Assembly: GCF_019218285.1 (NCBI RefSeq)
Contig: NZ_JAHUZG010000003.1
Coordinates: 496,001-560,000 of the forward strand
Reading direction: 5' to 3'
Source of the DNA: Antarctobacter sediminis
GTDB lineage: Bacteria > Pseudomonadota > Alphaproteobacteria > Rhodobacterales > Rhodobacteraceae
DNA length: 64,000 nt
Under the pieces are notes generated by a model. It was given only the letters and a program-made list of their open reading frames with translations, had not been told where the DNA came from and did not search any database. Positions 23,705 through 33,362 of the stretch are shown one piece after another (the first letter of the stretch is position 1; the number at the start of each line of letters is the position of its first letter). Both the position numbers and the translations under genes were made by a program.

Positions 23705-24175
23705 CTAGATGTTCGGATCTTCGGCGGCGCGTTCGAGCGCGTCAAAGGCCTGCATCAGTACAACGATCTGTGTCGGGTCGATATAGGACCGCAGCGCCTG
23801 CTGGCGCGCCTGCATCCGGGGCATGGTGCGTTCAAAGATCTCACGACCCTTGTCGGTCAGATCCAGGTGCAGTGCCCGGTTGTCCGCCTCGTCCCGGGTG
23901 ACGGAAAGATAGCCTTCGTTGCTGAGGGATTTGACGTTCCGGCTGATCAGGCCTTTGTCCATTGCGGTCATGCGCGACAACTGCGCCGATGTGCAGCGGC
24001 CACCATCCCCAAGCACCGCGATGATACGCCATTGCGTGATGGTCAGCCCGGCGTGATCGCGCAGGATGCGCGAGGCCTGAGCGTTCAGCTTGGATTGCAC
24101 CTTGGCAAGGCGGTAGGTGAGAAAATTGGCCAATGGCGCCTGTGCCAGGCCGACGGGATCGGTGTCGGTGTCCAT
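23705..24175 (-). CDS. MarR-family transcriptional regulator
   Basis: This 156-aa winged-helix regulator has the MarR layout: N-terminal dimer helix (LANFLTYRLAKVQSKLNAQASRIL), helix-turn-helix (LTITQWRIIAVLGDGGRCTSAQLSRMTAMDKGLISRNVKSL), the wing DEADNRALHLDLTDKGREIFE and a C-terminal dimer helix. It represses or activates in response to small phenolic or other ligands in known members. It stands alone after the terminator of the envelope operon and shows no clear target nearby. Confidence 0.9.
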   Translation of the reverse strand: MDTDTDPVGLAQAPLANFLTYRLAKVQSKLNAQASRILRDHAGLTITQWRIIAVLGDGGRCTSAQLSRMTAMDKGLISRNVKSLSNEGYLSVTRDEADNRALHLDLTDKGREIFERTMPRMQARQQALRSYIDPTQIVVLMQAFDALERAAEDPNI

Positions 24176-24301
24176 GAAAAAACTATCCTTGCCGGAAGGC
24201 GAATAAACAAAAGGCCCAAGGCCTGCCTCAGGTTAGCGGCGCGATTGCGTTACAGGCAAGGAAGAAAGGCAGGGGCCGCGTCCCGTGTCGGACGTGGCAA
24301 A

Positions 24302-24329
24302 CCCCTGCCCACGCGACCGCGGGCAGGGG
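24302..24329 (-). terminator. Terminator after the OmpA-type gene
   Basis: A long stem (CCCCTGCCC-CG / CG-GGGCAGGGG with a small bulge) lies just past the stop at 24337 on the minus strand and is followed by TTTG. It ends the three-gene envelope operon. Confidence 0.65.
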
Positions 24330-24336
24330 AACTGTA

Positions 24337-25065
24337 TCAGTACTGGCAGACCGTCGTCGCGGTTTGCAGGACGGCACCCGGAGTATTGGGCAGGCGCATG
24401 AAGGTCACGCGCCGGTTTTCGGCGGCATCGGGATATGCCTCGTTCTTGAGGACGTATTCCCCCCAGCCCACCGGGTAGAGCGGCACGCCGACATAGGCGC
24501 CTTCCAACAGGCGGGTGACAGAGGCCGCGCGCCGCAGGCTGAGGTCACAGTTGTATCCTTCCGAGCCAACCGCATCCGTGTGGCCGACCACCGCATAAGA
24601 CGTGCCTTGCAGCGCCGGGTCGTTCAGCGCGGCGATCAGCGTATCGATCTTGCCGCTCTGGTCCTGCCGAACCTTGTCACTGTCATAGTCGAACTCGATG
24701 GTGATCGCGACCGAAGGCAGGACGACCTTGCCGGTCTTGGGCGGTTCGGGCGCGTCGTATTTCGGCGGTTCGGGCGGCGGTGCCTTGCTGACAACCACCT
24801 TCTTGTTGTCGAGGTCCAGAACCAGGGTTTCGAACTGAACCGCCGGCCCGGCGCTTTCCAGCGCGATCCCGTCCGGGTCGATGTCGACCCCGGCGCAGTT
24901 GCCCGCATTGGCGTTCAGCAGGCAATTTGCCATCGCGCTTTTTGGCTGCGGTTTGAACGACATGATCGGGTCGTCGCCCTGGATGAAGATTTCGCCCTGC
25001 TGCGCAAGGCCTGCCGAGATCGGCAGGCCAAGGCAGAGAGCGACGCCGCAGAGAAGCTTACGCAT
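24337..25065 (-). CDS. OmpA-family outer-membrane/periplasmic protein
   Basis: This 242-aa protein has a signal peptide (MRKLLCGVALCLGLPISAGLAQQ), a short N-terminal region with two cysteines (NCLLNANAGNC), a proline-rich linker (APPPEPPKYDAPEPPK) and a C-terminal OmpA domain (ITIEFDYDSDKVRQDQSGKIDTLIAAL ... VVGHTDAVGSEGYNCDLSLRRAASV ... GWGEY ... ENRRVTF), which binds peptidoglycan. There is no beta-barrel. It starts 16 nt after the di-heme protein gene and is the last gene of the operon. It probably ties the complex to the cell wall. Confidence 0.88.
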   Translation of the reverse strand: MRKLLCGVALCLGLPISAGLAQQGEIFIQGDDPIMSFKPQPKSAMANCLLNANAGNCAGVDIDPDGIALESAGPAVQFETLVLDLDNKKVVVSKAPPPEPPKYDAPEPPKTGKVVLPSVAITIEFDYDSDKVRQDQSGKIDTLIAALNDPALQGTSYAVVGHTDAVGSEGYNCDLSLRRAASVTRLLEGAYVGVPLYPVGWGEYVLKNEAYPDAAENRRVTFMRLPNTPGAVLQTATTVCQY

Positions 25066-25080
25066 CGCTCTCGTCTCCTT

Positions 25081-27654
25081 TTAGTAGTCCCGGACCACGA
25101 CCGAGATCTGAGCCTTGGTCACGTCGGGGTTATGTTTGGACACGGCGCGGTAGTCGACGCCACTGTCGGTGTGCTTCTTGTCTTTCTCGCCGGCACCAAG
25201 GTCGAGGACCAGGGTTTCGTTGACGACGGTCTCATAGTGATCTTTCGACACGGCCTTGTGACCAACCGAGCAAGAGACCTTGGAGGTATCGCGGGTCACC
25301 TTGTCGATGGCCGCCTGACCGCCGTTGCAGATCGCAAGGATGGTTTCCAGGCCCGGCTCCGAGGTGCGCAGCGCACCCTTCGGCGGGAAGACGTACTGGG
25401 TGCCGCCGGGGATGACGATGTCATCGAGGCCCGGGAAAGGATACAGCACACAGCTGTCGTGGTCGTCGTCGATCGAGATCAGCGTCAGACGGCAGTCGTG
25501 GCGCGGTTCGATAAAGACCCGCAGTTCGTCACCAACCTTGTAGGTAGGCTTGTCGGTGTAGACGGTCAGGTGGCTTTGCGCCGCAACCGAATGCTGAACC
25601 GGGTCATAATCAGCGCCGTATTTCTTGGCGTCGTCATGGGTCTTGATCGGTTCCTTGCCTTTCACGACATAGTCGTTGCCGGTCGGCTTGTAGTCATCGT
25701 CCGCCTTGACGGCCACGGTGGTCTTGTAAGGATCGTCCTTGGTCACGACCACTTTCTTGTCGTCATAGTCGTCGGCCTTGACGATCGGCTTGGCGTCATA
25801 GTCGTCGTCCTTGACCACCACGATCTTTTTCTTCGGCTCATAGTCGGTGTCCTTGACCACCTGCTTGACCGAGTAGGACAGGTCCGCCGTCACGACGTGA
25901 TCCGTCTTGTAGGGGTAGTAGTCGGTCAGTTTGTCGAGCAGCACAGGATAGGCCGCCGTCCATTCGTCCCGAGCGATGGGCGAGGTGTCCAGACGGGTCA
26001 GCAGGCCGGCCATTTCATGCCCGGCAAAGGCCATCCGCCCACGCAGGGCATCCGAGGTCAAACCCAGTTCGTTGGCCGCCTGATCGAAGTCGATGAAGTA
26101 ATCGACGTGATAGACAAACAGGCCGCGCACCGGTTCCAGGCCAGCGGCCTTGGTGTCCGGGTCGATCCCGGCGCTTTCAAGGGTGGCAAGGAAGGCTTCC
26201 ATGTCGCGCTGGAAGTACTCGTTCACCACATCCTTGCCCGGATAGATCGCGTCGATGGTCTGACGTGCCGAAGAGGGCAGGGCGAGGTTGTTCAGCGCAA
26301 CGTCACGCACGGTGTCGTTGTTGAACCGCATACCTTTCGAGTGGCACGAGATGCACGAGATGCCGTTGACCACTTCGCCGGTGCCGTCGGGATAGTCCGT
26401 GTCACGGACGATCTGGGTCGGGCCGACGTTCAGGCGATCGCCTTCGGCGGTGTTCAGGTAATAGGCATGGAAACCGTTGGGCAGGGTAAAGATCGACTCG
26501 CCGCCGTCATGGTTGAAGGCAAGGTCAGGCCCATAGGCATCTGCCGGTCCCAGCGGGTATTCAAAGAAGCTCTGCCGCTTTTTCGACCCCGCAAAGTCAT
26601 AAGAGGTCCAGAAGAAACCGGTGCCCATCGGGTGACGTTCGATAAGGCGGTTGTGCGTGGACACACCCGAATCCTGAAAGCCGGCGCGGACGACCTGCTC
26701 GTTCAGGATGTTTTTCTTCATGCTGATGCCCAGCTTGTGTTCCAGGCCCTGAACGGTGTCCGGCAGGCCAAGCACGTCGTAATACATCGGCGAAACCGAG
26801 GCGGTCGCCGCGAACCAGTCGGCCCGGATGATCGGGATCTTGGTGCCCGCGAGGTGTTGCAGCGAACCAAGGTAGGGGTCGGTGTCGCTTTCCATCGCGT
26901 AGGGATATTCGGCCTCGAGATAGGCCCAGGTCTCGTGGGTCCAGTCGAGATCCGGCAGGAAGACGCGCAGCAGAACGCCGTGTTCGTCGACCTTTTCGAA
27001 CTTGTAGACGTTCGGGTTCCAGCTGAGCGCATTCATCAGCTTGACCGTACCCGCCAGGTAGGCGGTGTAGTTGTCGTCGGTGACCTCCGGGTCATTCCAC
27101 ATCGGGCGCATCGAGATATAGCGCACGCGGTCGCGGCGGTTGGTCGGCAGGCTCTGCATGTCGGCATGTGCCATGGCGTACATATCCGCCAGCGAGATGA
27201 ACTTGCGCGGTTCGGGCGCGGTATCGCCAAGGGCGACGATCCAGTCCTGAAGCTGCTGAAGCTCGGCTTCGTTCGGCACACAGCTGGGATCCCAGCAGTT
27301 GTCCGGCATCGCCGGCGCGCCGCCGGTGATCACCTGATACAGCTTGGATTTCGAAGGCTCGCCCACGGCGACAAGCTTGGGGTCGTTGGCCAGCCGGCGC
27401 ATGTCAAGAACGTGACCGAAACCGGCCTTGGCCTTGGTCAGGCCGTCGCCCAGTTTGCCGGTCTGGTGACAATCGGCGCAATATTTGTCGAGCACCGCAT
27501 AGGCAGCCTTTTCGGCATCGGTCGCATCGGCGGGAAGCTCATAGTTCAGGTCTTCGGGATCAATGAGCAAGGTGCCGTCCTGCGCCCATGCGGGCACGGC
27601 GAAAGCGGTCGCAAGGGCGATCGCGCTCACCTTCATCAGGTCGTTGGGTTGCAT
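25081..27654 (-). CDS. Periplasmic di-heme c-type protein with DUF4384 C-terminal domain
   Basis: The 857-aa protein has a signal peptide (about 1-24, cleavage after AWA) and two c-type heme sites: CADCH (C59, C62, H63) and CISCH (C434, C437, H438). A large heme-bearing region runs to about 580. Residues about 598-660 are an acidic/lysine linker of imperfect 11-13-residue repeats with a VVKDDDYDxK core. The C-terminus (LTVYTDKPTYKVGDELRVF ... LYPFPGLDD) is a DUF4384 domain, usually found on envelope-associated proteins. The start is the ATG with AGGAGA upstream; an overlapping ATG 5 nt earlier is out of frame. Electron transfer or heme-linked sensing is likely, but the partner is unknown. Confidence 0.8.
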   Translation of the reverse strand: MQPNDLMKVSAIALATAFAVPAWAQDGTLLIDPEDLNYELPADATDAEKAAYAVLDKYCADCHQTGKLGDGLTKAKAGFGHVLDMRRLANDPKLVAVGEPSKSKLYQVITGGAPAMPDNCWDPSCVPNEAELQQLQDWIVALGDTAPEPRKFISLADMYAMAHADMQSLPTNRRDRVRYISMRPMWNDPEVTDDNYTAYLAGTVKLMNALSWNPNVYKFEKVDEHGVLLRVFLPDLDWTHETWAYLEAEYPYAMESDTDPYLGSLQHLAGTKIPIIRADWFAATASVSPMYYDVLGLPDTVQGLEHKLGISMKKNILNEQVVRAGFQDSGVSTHNRLIERHPMGTGFFWTSYDFAGSKKRQSFFEYPLGPADAYGPDLAFNHDGGESIFTLPNGFHAYYLNTAEGDRLNVGPTQIVRDTDYPDGTGEVVNGISCISCHSKGMRFNNDTVRDVALNNLALPSSARQTIDAIYPGKDVVNEYFQRDMEAFLATLESAGIDPDTKAAGLEPVRGLFVYHVDYFIDFDQAANELGLTSDALRGRMAFAGHEMAGLLTRLDTSPIARDEWTAAYPVLLDKLTDYYPYKTDHVVTADLSYSVKQVVKDTDYEPKKKIVVVKDDDYDAKPIVKADDYDDKKVVVTKDDPYKTTVAVKADDDYKPTGNDYVVKGKEPIKTHDDAKKYGADYDPVQHSVAAQSHLTVYTDKPTYKVGDELRVFIEPRHDCRLTLISIDDDHDSCVLYPFPGLDDIVIPGGTQYVFPPKGALRTSEPGLETILAICNGGQAAIDKVTRDTSKVSCSVGHKAVSKDHYETVVNETLVLDLGAGEKDKKHTDSGVDYRAVSKHNPDVTKAQISVVVRDY

Positions 27655-27695
27655 AACATAGTCTCCTGTTGAAAGAGGGCTTGGTTGGAATCGGG

Positions 27696-29558
27696 TTACT
27701 GACACCGGATCGAGAGGTATTTCTTCGAGGCCCAGCCGGTGACCCCGCCGGTGCCGCGTTGTGGGTTCATGCACTGTCCCGAGAGGCAGCGGACCTGGGC
27801 CCAGTTGCCGCTCTGGTTCAGCACCTGAAGTCTGTCGCCGAGGTAGGTCTCGGAGATGATCCGGCCGCGCGTGCTGGCCTGCGTCCGGATATTCAGAAAG
27901 CCGGACCCGTTGTTGCGGGTGTGGCTGGTGAGCCTGTTCAGGTTGATCACCGTCGCGGTACACTGTGCGACCGGGCGGTCTGTCGGCTTGCTGGAGGCGA
28001 GGTAGCGGTTGGAAACCCACCCGTTCTGCCCGTTCGACAGACGCACGTTGTTCCAGCCGTCGTTTTCACCCAGCACGGTCACCTTGTCGGCAAAGTCGAT
28101 ACGGTTGATCACGCCATACTGCGTGCCCGGGCCCGAGCGGACGTTCAGGTGGTCGGTCCCGGTGACATACATCGTGTGTGTCTGCGTCGGCGGCGGAGTC
28201 ACCACCTTTTCGGGCGTCTTGAGATAGGTGATCCGTTCGATCACAACCCGCGCGATACAGTCGGCATCGGCACCACAGCGGTCGCGGGTTCCGGTACGCC
28301 AGGCGTGTTGCTGGGTCGCGGTCACATTGCGGGCGGGGGCCTTGTAGGCACGCTCCATCTCTTCGTCGAGACCGGCAAGATAGCGGTCGCCGCAGATCGT
28401 GCGTTCGGTTGTGTTCAGGTTGCCCGACTTGCACCACCACAGCAGCGGCTCTTGGGGGCGGGTATCGACCACGGGCGGTGCAACCGGGGTTTCATCCGCG
28501 GTGCACTGACGTGCCACGTAGGATTTGGCGAGGATCGAATAGCCGTGCTCGCCGCAGACCTGAAGGTAGGCTTCGTAGGCGAAGCATTCGTTGAACTCCT
28601 TGGCCTCGGCATAAAGCGCATCGCACAGTGCCAGTTCCGGCTCGACCGGGGGCGGCGTGACCTCGCCATTGTCGGCGGGCGGTGCCGGTGGGTTGACCGG
28701 ATCGGGGGCCCCGGGGACAACGGCGGCCTTGAGGATCGTCGATTGTGCCAGAATTTCGGCCATGGGAATGGCATAGTTCACCGCGTCACGGTTGGACCCG
28801 GCATGATGCAGGCCCACGACCTTTTGCAACGAGGCGTCGATCACAGGTGAGCCAGAGTTGCCCGGCAACGTGTCACAGGTGTGCAGAAGCTGCCTGTTCG
28901 ACAGGGCAGGCGCATTGGCGCGGCATTTCTCGCGGCTGATGCGCTGGGCTTCGCCCATCGGGTGGCCGATCACCCAGTAGGGATCGTTGTCCTGCGGCGT
29001 GACGGCTGCAAGATCCAGCTTGCCGAATTCGGACGAGGGATCGCCGATTACCTCCAGCACTGAATAATCCAGATCCTTGGAGGACTCGACCGGAGTGGGC
29101 ACCACGGTAAAACGGCGCGTGCCCTGATCGACGCCGGGCTGACGATAGCCTGCCACGAACAGCACCGAGTCGATGCGCGTGGCACCTGCGCGTTCGTTGT
29201 TCAGGATGCCCGGCACGCAATGGTGGTTGGTCAGGATGTGCTTTTTGTCGACGATGAAGGCGGTGCAAGGGTAAACGCCTGTATCCGTCAGGATATCCAG
29301 TCGGCCCACCGCCAGCCCCAGCTTGGAAAACACGCTGTTGGGCGAATAGTTGAGGATCGGTTCGTTGTTATAGTCGCCGATCGCCAGTTCAAGGTTGATG
29401 TCGCTGCCGCCCCCGGCCGCCTGATTGCGGCGCAGCACCACGCTGCCAAAGCTGGTCCGGTCGAACCCGACGAAGTCCTGCGCGTGGGATGGGGCCGGCG
29501 TCATGGCCGAAAGTCCCAGCGCAGTCATCAGTGTTGCCAGAGCAGCAGCGGTACGCAC
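27696..29558 (-). CDS. Secreted trypsin-like serine protease with LprI-like and two SH3 domains
   Basis: The 620-aa protein has a signal peptide ending SHAQ (about 1-27) and a chymotrypsin-fold protease with the full triad: H113 (LTNHHCVPG), D164 (KDLDYSVLEV) and S235 (TLPGNSGSPVI). A proline-rich spacer (about 284-306) leads to a cysteine-rich LprI/DUF1311-like segment (LNTTERTICGDRYLAGLDEEMERAY, about 381-405). Two bacterial SH3 domains follow (HLNVRSGPGTQYG from about 470; FLNIRTQASTRGR in the last 70 residues), suggesting cell-wall binding. Translation starts at GTG 29558 with AAGGA upstream. It is the first gene of the envelope operon and has its own promoter candidate. Confidence 0.85.
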   Translation of the reverse strand: MRTAAALATLMTALGLSAMTPAPSHAQDFVGFDRTSFGSVVLRRNQAAGGGSDINLELAIGDYNNEPILNYSPNSVFSKLGLAVGRLDILTDTGVYPCTAFIVDKKHILTNHHCVPGILNNERAGATRIDSVLFVAGYRQPGVDQGTRRFTVVPTPVESSKDLDYSVLEVIGDPSSEFGKLDLAAVTPQDNDPYWVIGHPMGEAQRISREKCRANAPALSNRQLLHTCDTLPGNSGSPVIDASLQKVVGLHHAGSNRDAVNYAIPMAEILAQSTILKAAVVPGAPDPVNPPAPPADNGEVTPPPVEPELALCDALYAEAKEFNECFAYEAYLQVCGEHGYSILAKSYVARQCTADETPVAPPVVDTRPQEPLLWWCKSGNLNTTERTICGDRYLAGLDEEMERAYKAPARNVTATQQHAWRTGTRDRCGADADCIARVVIERITYLKTPEKVVTPPPTQTHTMYVTGTDHLNVRSGPGTQYGVINRIDFADKVTVLGENDGWNNVRLSNGQNGWVSNRYLASSKPTDRPVAQCTATVINLNRLTSHTRNNGSGFLNIRTQASTRGRIISETYLGDRLQVLNQSGNWAQVRCLSGQCMNPQRGTGGVTGWASKKYLSIRCQ

Positions 29559-29600
29559 GACGAAGATCCTTCAAAAAAAGGGTTTCCAAAAGTCGTGTTC

Positions 29601-29629
29601 AGTTTGTTCAGAAGGGGCCGTTGCGTCAA
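29601..29629 (-). promoter_or_regulatory. Promoter candidate for the envelope operon
   Basis: On the minus strand TTGACG (29624-29629) and CAAACT (29601-29606) are 17 bp apart, about 45 nt before the GTG start of the protease gene. The -35 is near consensus and the -10 weak. Confidence 0.4.
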
Positions 29630-29633
29630 CGAA

Positions 29634-29661
29634 GGAAAACCCGACCTTGGGAAAAGTCGGG
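29634..29661 (-). terminator. Terminator of the amino-acid transporter operon
   Basis: On the minus strand a 6-bp stem CCCGAC / GTCGGG with a 10-nt loop is followed by TTTTCC, about 50 nt past the stop at 29711. It separates the transporter genes from the protease promoter. Confidence 0.65.
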
Positions 29662-29710
29662 CAAAATCGGGAGTTTGGGATCTGGTCGCCGGGGGTGAAA
29701 CCCGTGATGC

Positions 29711-30439
29711 CTACAGCACGCGGGACAGGAAGGCGCGGGTGCGCGCCTCTTGCGGGTCGTTGAAGACCTGTTCAGGCGTTCCGGATTCGAGAATGCGCCC
29801 CTCGTGCAGGAAGCAGACCGTATCGGCCAGTTCGCGTGCAAAACCCATCTCATGGGTTGCAAGAACCATGGTCATGCCCTCGGCGCGCAACTGTCGCAGA
29901 ACGTCCAGAACCTCACCCACCAGCTCGGGGTCCAGCGCCGACGTGATTTCGTCGAACAGCATGATCTCGGGGCGCATGGCGAGCGCGCGCACGATCGCGA
30001 CGCGTTGTTGCTGGCCGCCGGACAACTGGTCTGGGAAATGCTGCATCCGGTTGGCAAGGCCGAAACGGGCAAAAAGCTCGGCTACCTCGGGTTCCAGTTC
30101 GGCGCGGCTGCGGCCATGAACGCGACGCGGGGCCAGCATCGCATTGTCCAGCGCGGTCATATGCGGGAACAGGTTGTAGCTTTGGAACACCATGCCGATC
30201 CGCTGGCGCACTGGCTGCGGGTCGAACCCGGGTTCCGAAATATCGGTGCCGTCCAGCGTGATGCTGCCGTCGTCGATGGGTTCCAGCAGGTTCATGCAAC
30301 GCAGCAGCGTGGACTTGCCCGACCCCGAGGCACCGATCAGGCAGATCATCTGCCCTTTCGTGACTTCTAGGTCGATGCCCCGCAGCACGGGGTTTTCGCC
30401 AAAGCTCTTGCGGATGTCGGACAGGATCAGGCTTGCCAT
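29711..30439 (-). CDS. Polar amino-acid ABC transporter, ATP-binding protein
   Basis: This 242-aa ATPase powers uptake of an amino acid through the adjacent permease. It has Walker [10 protein letters not shown], the GlnQ-type [23 protein letters not shown]-loop, the signature [15 protein letters not shown], Walker [14 protein letters not shown] and the switch His ([12 protein letters not shown]). The GlnQ/HisP subfamily is clear from [17 protein letters not shown]. It starts one base inside the permease stop (TGATG-type overlap), so the two are coupled. The likely substrate class is polar amino acids; specificity cannot be read. Confidence 0.94.
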
Positions 30440-31263
30440 CAGCTGCGCGCCTTTCGTTGCCGGTTCATCAGGTGGTCGGCATAGCGTGTTGCGGGAATGG
30501 TGATCGCAAGGAAAATCAGCGCCGCGCCCACATAGGGTGTGAAATTGGCCATCAGCGACTTATAGACGCCTGCCTGCCGAAAGATCTCGACCGGGCCGAT
30601 AAAGCTTAGCAGCGCCACGTCTTTTTGCAGCGCGATAAAGAGGTTCATGTTGGCGGGCACCACGCGACGGATTGCCTGCGGCAGGATCACGAAACGCATG
30701 CAGTCTGCCGGGGCAAGCCCCAGAGACAGCGCGGCGGACCGCTGACTTTCGTGGATGGATTCGATGCCCGAGCGGATGACCTCGGCCACATAGGCGGCGT
30801 AGACAAGGACCAGAGCCAGAGAGCCCCAGATATAGGGCGAATTCCAAGGGCGTGGCAGGCCAAGGCCGGGAATGCCAAAGCCGATCAGGTAGATCACAAG
30901 GATCACCGGCAGACCGCGAAAGATATCGGTGTACAGCACCGCCGCCAGCCGCAGGGGATAGAGCGCTGGCGTGCGCAGGTCCCGCGCGATGGCCACCGCC
31001 AGCCCCAGCGCCGCAATCAGCGGTGCGCACCACGCAAAGATCGCGATGTCCAGCAGAAAGGCATTCAGCAGGCCGGGAAAGGTCTTGGCAAAGACTTCTC
31101 CGTTGAAGAACACGCGCTGCACCCTGTCCCATCCCGGCGCAAGCGGGATCAGGACAACAAGAGCGATCACCACGGCAAGCGTGGATCCGGCGGCGATAAG
31201 ATTGGCGCGACGACGTTGCCGCGCTTCGAATATCTGGCGACGAGTGGGCATGCGCCGCGCCAT
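30439..31263 (-). CDS. Polar amino-acid ABC transporter, permease
   Basis: The 274-aa membrane protein has about five to six transmembrane segments and the HisM/GlnP-type EAA loop ([43 protein letters not shown]), which docks to the ATPase. An extra basic N-terminal stretch ([21 protein letters not shown]) precedes the first helix. I chose the ATG at 31263; one at 31251 is equally possible, and the frame is open upstream. No second permease is present, so it probably forms a homodimer. Confidence 0.88.
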
Positions 31264-31412
31264 AAGACGAAACAGGCCCGATGGGAAGGGTCTGAAGACG
31301 GTTTTCGCACCGGCAAATCCTGCGGCGAGTCCGATCCGGGGCTTTCGATCCGATCGGGGCCGGGGTATCGCGGAACTGGTGGTGCCACCAAGGTTCAAAG
31401 ACAGGAAAGCCC

Positions 31413-32318
31413 ATGATCGTCCGAGACCAGCCGTCCTCTCTGCGCCTGTTCCTTGTGCTGCAAGGCTCTGTGGTGCCGATGATCCTGTCCAAGATCCTCA
31501 GCATCACCCTGCTGTCGGTGATCGTCCTTTTGGTGGACCTGCACGTGATGACCCTGCCGCATATCTCGATCGCGGGGATGGGCATCTTTGGCGTGGCATT
31601 GTCGCTGTTTCTCGGCTTTCGCAACAATGCCGCCTATGACCGCTGGTGGGAGGCGCGCAAGCTGTGGGGCACGATGATCGCCGACGTGCGCAACCTCGGT
31701 CGGCACATGTGCATCTATGTCGGCAAGGGGGAAGACCGCGAAAGGATCCTGTCCTGCGTGGTGGCCTTCGCGCATCTGCATCGGGGGTTCCTGAGGGGCG
31801 TCGACGTGCGGGACCAGATCACCGGCTGGGTTGGCGCCGAAAAGGCCGATGTGATGCTTGCACACAGGAATCCGGCGGATGCGGCGCTGCGGTCGATGGC
31901 GGACCAGATCGCCGATCTGTCCCGGACCGGCGGTATCAGCGGCTATGGGCAACTGACCCTGTCACAGACCTTGTCATCGCTGGCCCTTGCGCAGGCCGGG
32001 TGTGAGAGGATCTCGACCACGCCCTTGCCCTATGTCTATTCGCTTTTGGTGCGGCGGACGACCTACCTTTATTGCTGGCTTCTGCCCTTCGCCCTGATCG
32101 AGGCGGCGAACTGGTTCGCACCGGTGGTCGCGGCGGTCGCGGCCTATGTGTTCTTTGGCCTTCAGGCGGTCACGAACGAACTGGAACAGCCCTTTCGCCA
32201 CGTGCAGAACGGCCTGCCGCTGGACGCCATGTGCCGCACGATCGAGATTTCCGTGGCCGAGGCGCTGGACCGCACCCCGCCAGAGCCGTTGTTGCCCGGC
32301 AACCACGTGCTGACCTGA
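31413..32318 (+). CDS. Bestrophin-family (UPF0187) membrane protein
   Basis: The 301-aa protein shows the bestrophin pattern: N-terminal SLRLFLVLQGSVVPMILSKI, a first hydrophobic pair, FLGFRNNAAYDRWWEARKLWGTMIADVRNL (the conserved N-A-Y-D-R-W-W-E-A-R core), then TTPLPYVYSLLVRRTTYLYCWLLPFALIEA and an acidic-aromatic NELEQPFRH end. Bacterial bestrophin homologues form pentameric ion channels, in some cases cation-selective. An AGGAAA site precedes the ATG. It lies on the opposite strand inside an ABC transporter locus, between the permease and the binding-protein gene. Confidence 0.9.
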   Translation: MIVRDQPSSLRLFLVLQGSVVPMILSKILSITLLSVIVLLVDLHVMTLPHISIAGMGIFGVALSLFLGFRNNAAYDRWWEARKLWGTMIADVRNLGRHMCIYVGKGEDRERILSCVVAFAHLHRGFLRGVDVRDQITGWVGAEKADVMLAHRNPADAALRSMADQIADLSRTGGISGYGQLTLSQTLSSLALAQAGCERISTTPLPYVYSLLVRRTTYLYCWLLPFALIEAANWFAPVVAAVAAYVFFGLQAVTNELEQPFRHVQNGLPLDAMCRTIEISVAEALDRTPPEPLLPGNHVLT

Positions 32319-32372
32319 GAGCGGCCAGAGCGGCCCGAGCGATCGTGAAGCGCGCCCGGGCCAGTGATAGGG

Positions 32373-33188
32373 TTACTCGATGACCGGAACGCCGGTGGTT
32401 TCCTGAAGCCACTCGGCCTCGATCTCGGCCAGCTTGCCACTGTCTTTCAACGCGGTCAGGGCGGCGTTGACGCAGGGTTTCAGCGCACTGCCTTCTTCCA
32501 TCAGCAGGCCGAACTGATCGGGATTCTCGGTCCGCTCGGGCGGGAACTGGCCAAGGATCACGCCGTTTTCCAGCACAACCGCCGCAAGGTACAGCGCGGT
32601 CGGAAGGTCGAACAGCGCGGCGTCGATCTGGCCCGCCTGCATTGCGGCAGTTACGTCGACGTTGTCACCGTAAAGCATCGGCTGCTTGTCGGGATCGATC
32701 AGGTCGGTCAGCATTGGCACGGCGGTGGTATTGGCATCCGCGCCCCACAGCAGCGACTTGAGGTTTTCAACCTTGGGTTCCGCGCCAGCGTCAACCACCG
32801 ATTGCGTGGTCAGAACGGCCATGGCCGAGCTGTAATAGGGCAGCGAGAAATCGACGACCTTTTCACGATCCTCGGTGATCGAGAACTGTTGCAGGTTGAA
32901 ATCGAAATCCTTGGCGCCGGGCTGGATCGACTGATCGAAAGAGGTGCGGACCCATGTCACCTGTTCGGGCGCAAAACCCATTTCTGCGGCGACCGCATAG
33001 GCGACGGCGGCCTCATAGCCTTTGCCGCTTTCAGGGGCGTCGTCCAGCACCCAGGGGAAAAAGGCCGGGTTGCCGGTGGCCACGGTCAGCGTGCCGTCGG
33101 TCAGGGTCTTTCCGGCAGCACAGTCGTTCTGGGCAAAGGCGGCGCCCGCCAGCCCGCAGGCGAGGGCGGCATAGATCGTCAGTTTCAT
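32373..33188 (-). CDS. Polar amino-acid ABC transporter, periplasmic binding protein
   Basis: This 271-aa protein has a signal peptide (MKLTIYAALACGLAGAAFAQ) and a family 3 solute-binding domain (TLTDGTLTVATGNPAFFPWVLDD ... GKGYEAAVAYAVAAEMGF ... FDFNLQQFSITEDREKVVDFSLPYYSSAMAVL). It delivers the substrate to the permease at 30439-31263, from which it is separated by the opposite-strand bestrophin gene. A promoter with perfect TTGACA lies upstream. Only two mature cysteines are visible. The specific amino acid is not deducible. Confidence 0.88.
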   Translation of the reverse strand: MKLTIYAALACGLAGAAFAQNDCAAGKTLTDGTLTVATGNPAFFPWVLDDAPESGKGYEAAVAYAVAAEMGFAPEQVTWVRTSFDQSIQPGAKDFDFNLQQFSITEDREKVVDFSLPYYSSAMAVLTTQSVVDAGAEPKVENLKSLLWGADANTTAVPMLTDLIDPDKQPMLYGDNVDVTAAMQAGQIDAALFDLPTALYLAAVVLENGVILGQFPPERTENPDQFGLLMEEGSALKPCVNAALTALKDSGKLAEIEAEWLQETTGVPVIE

Positions 33189-33222
33189 AGGAGGGTTCCC
33201 CTGTCCTTGTTTGATTGGCGAC

Positions 33223-33251
33223 AGCTTTGCCTTGCGGCGCGGCGTTGTCAA
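33223..33251 (-). promoter_or_regulatory. Promoter of the binding-protein gene
   Basis: On the minus strand a perfect -35 TTGACA (33246-33251) is followed after 17 bp by AAAGCT (33223-33228), about 35 nt before the start codon. The -10 is weak. Confidence 0.5.
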
Positions 33252-33362
33252 TTTGGCTGCGGTTTTCCGCGCTGGCGTTTGGGCCTGAACGGGCCGTGCC
33301 ATGTCGTGATGCTGTCACGCCCGGGGCATAAGATGCGCGGGATTCGGACCGGGGGACAGGCC

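Follow-up and report, generated by a model that had tools for sequence, protein, structure and literature searches.

The stretch of DNA analyzed here (hereafter the window) comprises 64,000 nucleotides (nt) of contig NZ_JAHUZG010000003.1 from the alphaproteobacterium Antarctobacter sediminis, whose genome assembly contains 5,120,735 bases in 21 contigs. Its minus strand carries three adjacent genes encoding an S1 serine protease of 620 amino acids (aa), an 857-aa protein with two CxxCH heme-binding motifs and a DUF4384 tail, and an OmpA-type protein of 242 aa; 41 nt separate the protease gene from the heme-protein gene, and 15 nt separate the latter from the OmpA gene. An earlier note on this DNA had described this arrangement, with signal peptides on all three proteins, and had regarded a cell-wall-anchored, redox-linked proteolytic complex as plausible. 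The arrangement stands as described, and in relatives the heme-binding core of the 857-aa protein is found beside three unrelated kinds of protease. This suggests a still undescribed heme-linked proteolytic system of the cell envelope.

The operon and its three proteins

Comparison with Pfam supports the assignment of all three proteins. The protease belongs to the S1 family by its scores above the cut-offs of Trypsin_2 (64.1 bits vs. 27.6) and Trypsin, and SH3_3 (92.1 bits vs. 27) matches it in two stretches, in agreement with the two SH3 domains previously noted; the proposed triad of H113, D164, and S235 is present and aligns with the S1 triad. The LprI-like segment also ascribed to this protein was dismissed as unproven, scoring 14.2 bits against a cut-off of 22 and reaching E ≤ 0.05 in just 4 of 21 orthologues. 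In the heme protein, both the Cytochrome_CBB3 profile (29.8 bits vs. 27) and the DUF4384 profile (Table 1) exceed their cut-offs, confirming the tail; together with the two CxxCH motifs and a signal peptide recognized by eye, the former score marks it as a predicted c-type cytochrome. Among its relatives, the heme protein also carries DUF4384 above cut-off in L017, L020, and L079 (loci are cited by our own numbers), and below it in L083 (25.4 bits) and L088 (20.4 bits). The OmpA protein scores 42.7 bits against a cut-off of 27.2 and keeps the motifs GHTD and LSxxRAxxV, with which OmpA domains bind peptidoglycan, as expected of the binder that had been predicted. Signal-peptide-like N-termini can be discerned by eye in all three proteins. 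For the genes of relatives, signal peptides were tallied with a crude score that 372 of 969 other genes pass too.

The expression signals are less clear. No sigma-70 promoter-like site was found in a scan of positions 24100-29900, where 1.2 would be expected by chance, and the promoter candidate reported before the gene set was thus not recovered. The reported terminator behind it has a counterpart in a GC-rich hairpin with a weak T run, seen by eye at about 24329-24302; it is missing from the list of the terminator scan, which has another hairpin at 24232-24212. On the other side, the operon adjoins the genes of a polar amino-acid ATP-binding cassette (ABC) importer (binding protein, permease, and ATPase; 29711-33302).

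Table 1. Positions of the operon's features in the window
Feature	Position	Strand	Basis
Secreted serine protease of family S1 (trypsin/V8/HtrA type), 620 aa, ending in two SH3b domains; GTG start	27696..29558	-	Pfam, alignment, PDB S1 matches
S1 protease domain, residues 94-265	28764..29279	-	Pfam, alignment
Catalytic H113	29222-29220	-	Aligns with S1 triad
Catalytic D164	29069-29067	-	Aligns with S1 triad
Catalytic S235	28856-28854	-	Aligns with S1 triad
Two bacterial SH3 domains, residues ~470-520 and 558-617	27708..28151	-	Pfam; end of the second from structure model
Secreted di-heme c-type cytochrome (predicted), core without family name, DUF4384 tail, 857 aa	25081..27654	-	
Conserved heme core, residues 44-579; query for distant homologue searches	25918..27525	-	
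Heme site 1, CADCH, residues 59-63	27466..27480	-	Sequence
Met116 codon	27309-27307	-	Invariant in 62/62 rows
Heme site 2, CISCH, residues 434-438	26341..26355	-	Sequence
His341, candidate heme 2 ligand	26634-26632	-	Alignments
DUF4384 domain, residues 704-776	25327..25545	-	31.3 bits vs. cut-off 27
OmpA-type peptidoglycan-binding protein, signal peptide, 242 aa	24337..25065	-	Pfam, motifs
GC-rich hairpin 3' of the last gene, weak T run, possible terminator	24302..24329	-	By eye; absent from scan list
Terminator-like hairpin between operon and upstream ABC-importer genes	29639..29662	-	Terminator scan

Gene order and exchange of the protease

A scan of a genome collection (stated size, 84,980 species) for the heme core yielded 202 relatives, of which the best 80 loci were kept. 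The relatives were found through two short peptide patterns, so that weaker ones lie outside the sample. Gene calls and gaps in these loci come from our own script. Outside the proteins scanned with Pfam, genes were labeled with our own profiles, which had been built from a few seeds plus a single round of hits; labels at a distance from the heme gene may in some cases be wrong (for example, a second flavocytochrome label in L087), and the layouts described below are anchored by Pfam-scanned representatives. Counts out of 64 refer to loci that extend 2.5 kb or more to either side of the heme gene, the 16 of the 80 that are cut by contig ends being excluded. The full set of 87 core proteins consists of the 80 loci of the collection and seven further ones, two of which are second copies; L015 and L016, which are the same loci as L035 and L039, were kept out of the tree and are counted in the set of 87 cores and in that of 29 S1 proteases.

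In lineages close to that of the window, gene order is maintained. In all 20 loci from L023 to L042, the heme gene is immediately preceded by an S1 gene and immediately followed by an OmpA gene, all on one strand; the called gaps are 23-54 nt and 1-254 nt, respectively. Because the same genes recur in the same order in 20/20 loci, the trio is not a chance arrangement, and the co-occurrence that the earlier note had proposed to check holds for the near relatives. The nearest named relatives by heme-core sequence are Mameliella, Maliponia, and Antarctobacter (Roseobacteraceae). On a tree of the heme core, a single group with a support of 100 unites the 24 S1 rows, namely 21 strict S1-heme-OmpA triplets (the window included), two loci in which an amidase gene separates the protease gene from the heme gene (L017, by Pfam Amidase_2, and L043, by our own profile), and one with the S1 gene on the opposite strand (L045). 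The cut locus L044 has the order heme, OmpA, S1. A window-type triplet was also seen in a record titled Enemella evansiae (Actinomycetota; L028:7643-13071), which the tree places among the roseobacters and which is probably a mislabeled or contaminated assembly.

Farther away, the protease changes while the heme core stays. We distinguish four layouts around the core on the basis of gene calls and labels, the window type being S1, heme, OmpA. In Afipia, Pseudorhodoplanes, and Bradyrhizobium, the genes encode an extracytoplasmic function (ECF) sigma factor, a likely anti-sigma factor (29.1 bits in NCBIfam, under the cut-off of 100), a subtilase of family S8, OmpA, and the heme protein. Labrys, Bauldia, and Methyloceanibacter have a small cytochrome c gene and C14 caspases, some with DUF4384, before the heme gene, which in Labrys and Bauldia is followed by an OmpA gene. 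The fourth layout, that of Shinella, Pararhizobium, and Cucumibacter, combines a ferric-reductase-type flavocytochrome, a four-heme protein, OmpA, a C14 protein, and a C14 protein with DUF4384; L019 and L020, from the window's own family, follow the same plan, and L097 from Ancylobacter is a variant of it with a WD40/C14 protein. At L063, S8, OmpA, and C14 genes all lie beside one heme gene, as an intermediate between protease types would. The planctomycete loci L080 (by Pfam) and L090 (by our own profile) encode a fusion of the core with WD40 repeats; neither showed an S1, S8, or C14 gene, the stretch available for L090 being short. On the heme-core tree, protease class switches rarely, with one change for S1, two for S8, and four for C14.

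An S1, S8, or C14 gene was called within four genes of the heme gene in 59/64 loci, and in the same same-strand run in 50 of the 64; OmpA lies within four genes in 55, and both OmpA and a protease do so in 51. Over all 80 loci, proteases account for 85 of the 566 genes lying up to four places from the heme gene vs. 4 of 567 farther away (Fisher p ~2e-22), a contrast that is inflated by the relatedness of the loci. After dereplication at 80% identity, with a single locus kept from each group, 28 of 33 loci keep a protease, with 36/260 near vs. 2/259 far genes (p ~9e-10). The linkage of core and protease is conserved, and nothing argues more strongly for a functional link between the two than the replacement of one protease by unrelated ones.

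The flavocytochrome follows a narrower pattern. It occurs within four genes of the heme gene in 13 loci of the collection, in each case directly upstream of a four-heme gene in a caspase-type locus; no two-heme locus has one within four genes, and five four-heme loci have neither flavocytochrome nor caspase. An independently annotated plasmid of Neorhizobium petrolearium has caspase, OmpA, ferredoxin reductase, and c-type cytochrome family genes in a row. Plasmid carriage as the rule was rejected, as only 1 of 72,556 plasmid records matched the core. Within the order, the heme protein was matched in 8 of 292 genomes including its own, and the module is therefore sporadic there; four of these have the S1 type (the own genome, G021, G044, and G133, the last with an inserted amidase gene), and four have caspases instead (G002, G038, G206, and G207).

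Additional small genes accompany some of these loci. In three of them, which have a divergent caspase, the heme gene is followed by one for a secreted protein that we take to resemble FecR (L048:5072-5662, L055:10844-11479, and L059:5391-5987), and two secreted proteins, presumably ClpP-like, lie between the caspases of L021 (13220-16753). Directly after the four-heme gene of L079, L081, L082, L086, and L102, loci in which no neighboring protease was called, there is a small secreted protein of 86-101 aa, rich in Cys, Lys, and Tyr.

The heme core and the proteases

Conservation within the core was assessed in an alignment (A4) of 62 rows, namely the window and 61 of 75 near-complete cores, leaving out 11 cores (ten near-copies and the cut core L068) as well as L082, L095, and L097, whose domain bounds were merged. 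Both CxxCH motifs are invariant in 62/62 rows, so the heme sites passed the conservation test that had been set for them. In the set of 87, two or four CxxCH motifs are found in 83 proteins; the four with a single motif (L044, L077, L085, and L099) are situated at the end of a contig, and the N-terminal part is missing from their cores. Met116 is likewise invariant and probably serves heme 1 as a sixth ligand. For heme 2, His341 is a candidate, being invariant in A4. Seven aromatic residues (W138, W238, W349, Y179, Y252, Y291, and Y352) are each conserved in all 62 rows.

A structure model of the core computed from the 62-row alignment is of good quality, with a predicted local distance difference test score (pLDDT) of 87.8 and a predicted template modeling score (pTM) of 0.86. 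No PDB chain matches it at E ≤ 0.001, the nearest sensible PDB fragment being cytochrome c6A (E 4.3, ~109 columns), and no match at this threshold was obtained in the viral library BFVD, on which grounds a viral origin of the fold was dismissed. Because neither library gave a match at this threshold, the bulk of the modeled core seems, as far as this sensitivity reaches, to have a fold of which no relative has been solved. Membership in the MauG/di-heme cytochrome c peroxidase family was rejected as well, since CCP_MauG reaches 15.3 bits against a cut-off of 25.6 and the PDB search gave no match at E ≤ 0.001.

The catalytic residues of the proteases are conserved in each class. Among the S1 proteins, His, Asp, and Ser, together with four cysteines (Cys 98, 114, 212, and 228), are kept in 29/29, two of the 29 being second copies of the same loci. 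The S8 proteins have the catalytic Asp and His in 17 of 17 sequences where these positions are aligned and the Ser in 18 of 18, and the C14 proteins have His in 54/59 and Cys in 53/59. C14 proteins missing one or both residues occur in L060, L062, L070, L073, L075, and L078; five of these six loci hold a second, non-exceptional C14 gene, and none was called in L075. The structure model of the window protease finds S1 enzymes in the PDB, with matches starting at E ~4e-8 and including HtrA, DegS, V8 protease, glutamyl endopeptidase, and MarP (3k6y). Because the model is poor (pLDDT 71, pTM 0.39), these matches are used for the S1 fold only.

The protease family is wider than the operon. A search of the order with the whole protease matched 27 of 292 genomes at E ≤ 1e-10, some by the SH3 part only. 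In the window's own genome, S1 relatives stand alone at L134 and L135 and as a tandem trio at L136, with no heme core or OmpA gene in the stretches fetched. The trio (L136:5656-12690) consists of proteases of 242, 867, and 1093 aa between genes that we take to be purine-synthesis genes, and L137 and L138 have one S1 copy between the same neighbors. A separate operon of the same genome (L022:5616-11785) encodes a secreted 328-aa protein without assignment, an S1 protease, OmpA, a WD40 protein that our own profile also scored as C14, and a DUF4384-like protein (weak, 20.7 bits vs. 27). In L143, from another genome, an S1 gene adjoins an OmpA gene, with a C14 gene farther away. The layouts of L022 and L143 imply that S1 and OmpA can be paired in the absence of the cytochrome, whereas 59/64 core loci have a protease nearby.

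Possible function and relation to known systems

From sequence, the operon may encode a peptidoglycan-anchored, cytochrome-coupled envelope protease module, a reading that we favor tentatively and regard as quite possible, if by no means assured. The OmpA protein would tie the set to peptidoglycan, with the cytochrome as its input part and the protease as its output; the core is the likely input because it is the part that stays constant across loci. The cytochrome might sense or receive electrons, here from periplasmic redox partners, while in the four-heme relatives the membrane ferric-reductase-like flavocytochrome could pass electrons from NAD(P)H to the core. It may then control the timing or the substrates of the tethered protease, possibly by way of the redox state of conserved cysteines in the protease or through substrate presentation by DUF4384; the invariant cysteines next to His113 and before Ser235 are candidate switches. 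As for the complex proposed in the earlier note, its gene linkage and heme sites are found conserved, and the redox link is what we infer. A narrower version seems unlikely to us, namely a cytochrome-gated switch in which a wall-anchored core of new fold would turn on the trypsin-like protease, subtilase, or caspase paired with it, fed in some lineages by an NAD(P)H flavocytochrome. In animal cells, cytochrome c triggers caspase activation; to see in the same switch an independently assembled parallel to this, in which the planctomycete core is joined to WD40 repeats, is equally unlikely.

Several observations weigh against coupling of cytochrome and protease. In five of the 64 loci (L069, L079, L080, L081, and L086), the four nearest genes on either side of the heme gene include no S1, S8, or C14 protease, nine loci have no OmpA gene within that distance, and in four Afipia loci (L050, L056, L066, and L074) no OmpA gene was called between the S8 and the heme gene. 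At 60% dereplication, 11 loci are left, of which eight have a protease, and the contrast between near and far genes becomes weak (11/85 vs. 2/73, p = 0.018). The core is also rare: in a sample of the class, 2 of 385 genomes match it at E ≤ 1e-20, both from the window's own family, and in a sample of the phylum 11 of 398 do so at E ≤ 0.001, three over the whole core and eight weakly and partially. His341 is missing in three of the eight rows (L018, L019, and L020) of an earlier alignment (A1), and the heme 2 ligand therefore stays a candidate. Finally, the S1 family occurs alone in the same genome (L134, L135, and L136), so the protease does not always need a cytochrome.

Other explanations of the gene set have to be considered. 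Possible, if on the unlikely side, is a response to envelope damage in which the cytochrome would detoxify or sense oxidants such as peroxide or nitric oxide and the protease would degrade oxidized or misfolded envelope proteins, the two sharing a stress without direct gating. The Afipia-type operons are consistent with this, since they start with an ECF sigma factor (by Pfam in L047) and a likely anti-sigma factor, as are the HtrA, DegS, and MarP structures among the fold matches, MarP being reportedly linked to acid and oxidative stress (PMC4992679). However, the sole matching peroxidase family stays under its cut-off, and the way in which protease folds replace one another beside a single cytochrome suggests a link tighter than shared regulation. 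Rather improbable is that the core is a MauG-like oxidizing enzyme that modifies protein substrates or the protease, which would mature or remove the modified product. Two hemes in one core, the many invariant Trp and Tyr residues, and a weak CCP_MauG signal around heme site 2 would suit such an enzyme, but that signal is under its cut-off, the fold has no PDB match at E ≤ 0.001, and no substrate gene was recognized.

The importer next to the operon raises the question of nutrient scavenging, in which the protease would digest proteins for amino-acid uptake and the cytochrome would be incidental. Relatives of the importer permease and ATPase are present in 17 of the 21 loci L023-L043, and the ABC genes are adjacent in the window. 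Against this, these importer genes were not found in L037, L040, L042, L043, L045, and L017, and in L041 they lie on the other side; in the window, they are divided from the operon by a terminator-like site, and the conserved cytochrome and the OmpA anchoring would be left unexplained; we consider scavenging very unlikely. We give equally little credence to neighbors without a common function, held together by descent in a few clades. Many loci are indeed near-copies, as the 60% dereplication makes plain, and occurrence is patchy, but flanking genes vary between clades, and a single core has three protease folds in its vicinity, in most cases along with OmpA, across Roseobacteraceae, Nitrobacteraceae, Xanthobacteraceae, Rhizobiaceae, and others. 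One cytochrome core with three unrelated protease folds is unusual evidence for a coupling of heme chemistry and envelope proteolysis. If the cytochrome-coupled module is real, it would add a redox input to bacterial envelope proteolysis, give DUF4384 a testable setting, offer a protein core without a solved relative, and provide bacterial caspase operons with a concrete partner to test.

What appears new is the gene system and the core fold, as distinct from a demonstrated function; full-text literature searches, evaluated by titles and the beginnings of abstracts and mostly outside subscription papers, returned no description of a cytochrome-protease-OmpA system. MauG and the di-heme cytochrome c peroxidases have two CxxCH sites in one periplasmic protein, as does the window protein, whose CCP_MauG signal, however, falls short of the cut-off and is confined to the surroundings of heme site 2. 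In a survey of bacterial metacaspases (orthocaspases), OmpA occurs in 14 of 217 predicted operons and 70 of the 217 have no assigned function, and the word cytochrome does not appear in its main text (Asplund-Samuelsson et al. 2012, PMC3501461). The operons surveyed share C14 genes and OmpA with the loci described here, whereas the window operon has an S1 protease and no caspase; it was not counted among them, none of its three genes matching C14 at E ≤ 0.1. Trypsin-like and caspase-like peptidases also replace each other in the VMAP/iSTAND ternary conflict systems, with OmpA domains in iSTAND (Kaur et al. 2020, PMC7159879). Those systems are built on a MoxR-type nucleoside triphosphatase (NTPase) and vWA, whereas the window operon lacks these and has signal peptides and heme sites; membership was rejected, as no MoxR or other NTPase and no vWA was found in the trio or four scanned neighbors, except for the importer ATPase.

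Closer to the protease itself is MarP (Rv3671c), which likewise works in the envelope and is reported to have an active site linked with a disulfide and with oxidative stress (PMC4992679). The window protease resembles it in the S1 fold match to 3k6y and in a weak NCBIfam match, too low for membership (21.6 bits vs. a cut-off of 250). MarP is transmembrane, whereas the window protease has one N-terminal signal-like stretch, identified by eye, as well as SH3 domains and a cytochrome neighbor. The core, for its part, invites comparison with the planctomycete PSCyt1/WD40 cytochromes. PSCyt1 is above its cut-off in the WD40-fused relatives L080 and L090 and in L098 (26.7-27.8 bits vs. 22), and the window core was excluded from that family, having no match at E ≤ 1; in place of WD40 repeats it carries DUF4384, and it belongs to a protease operon.

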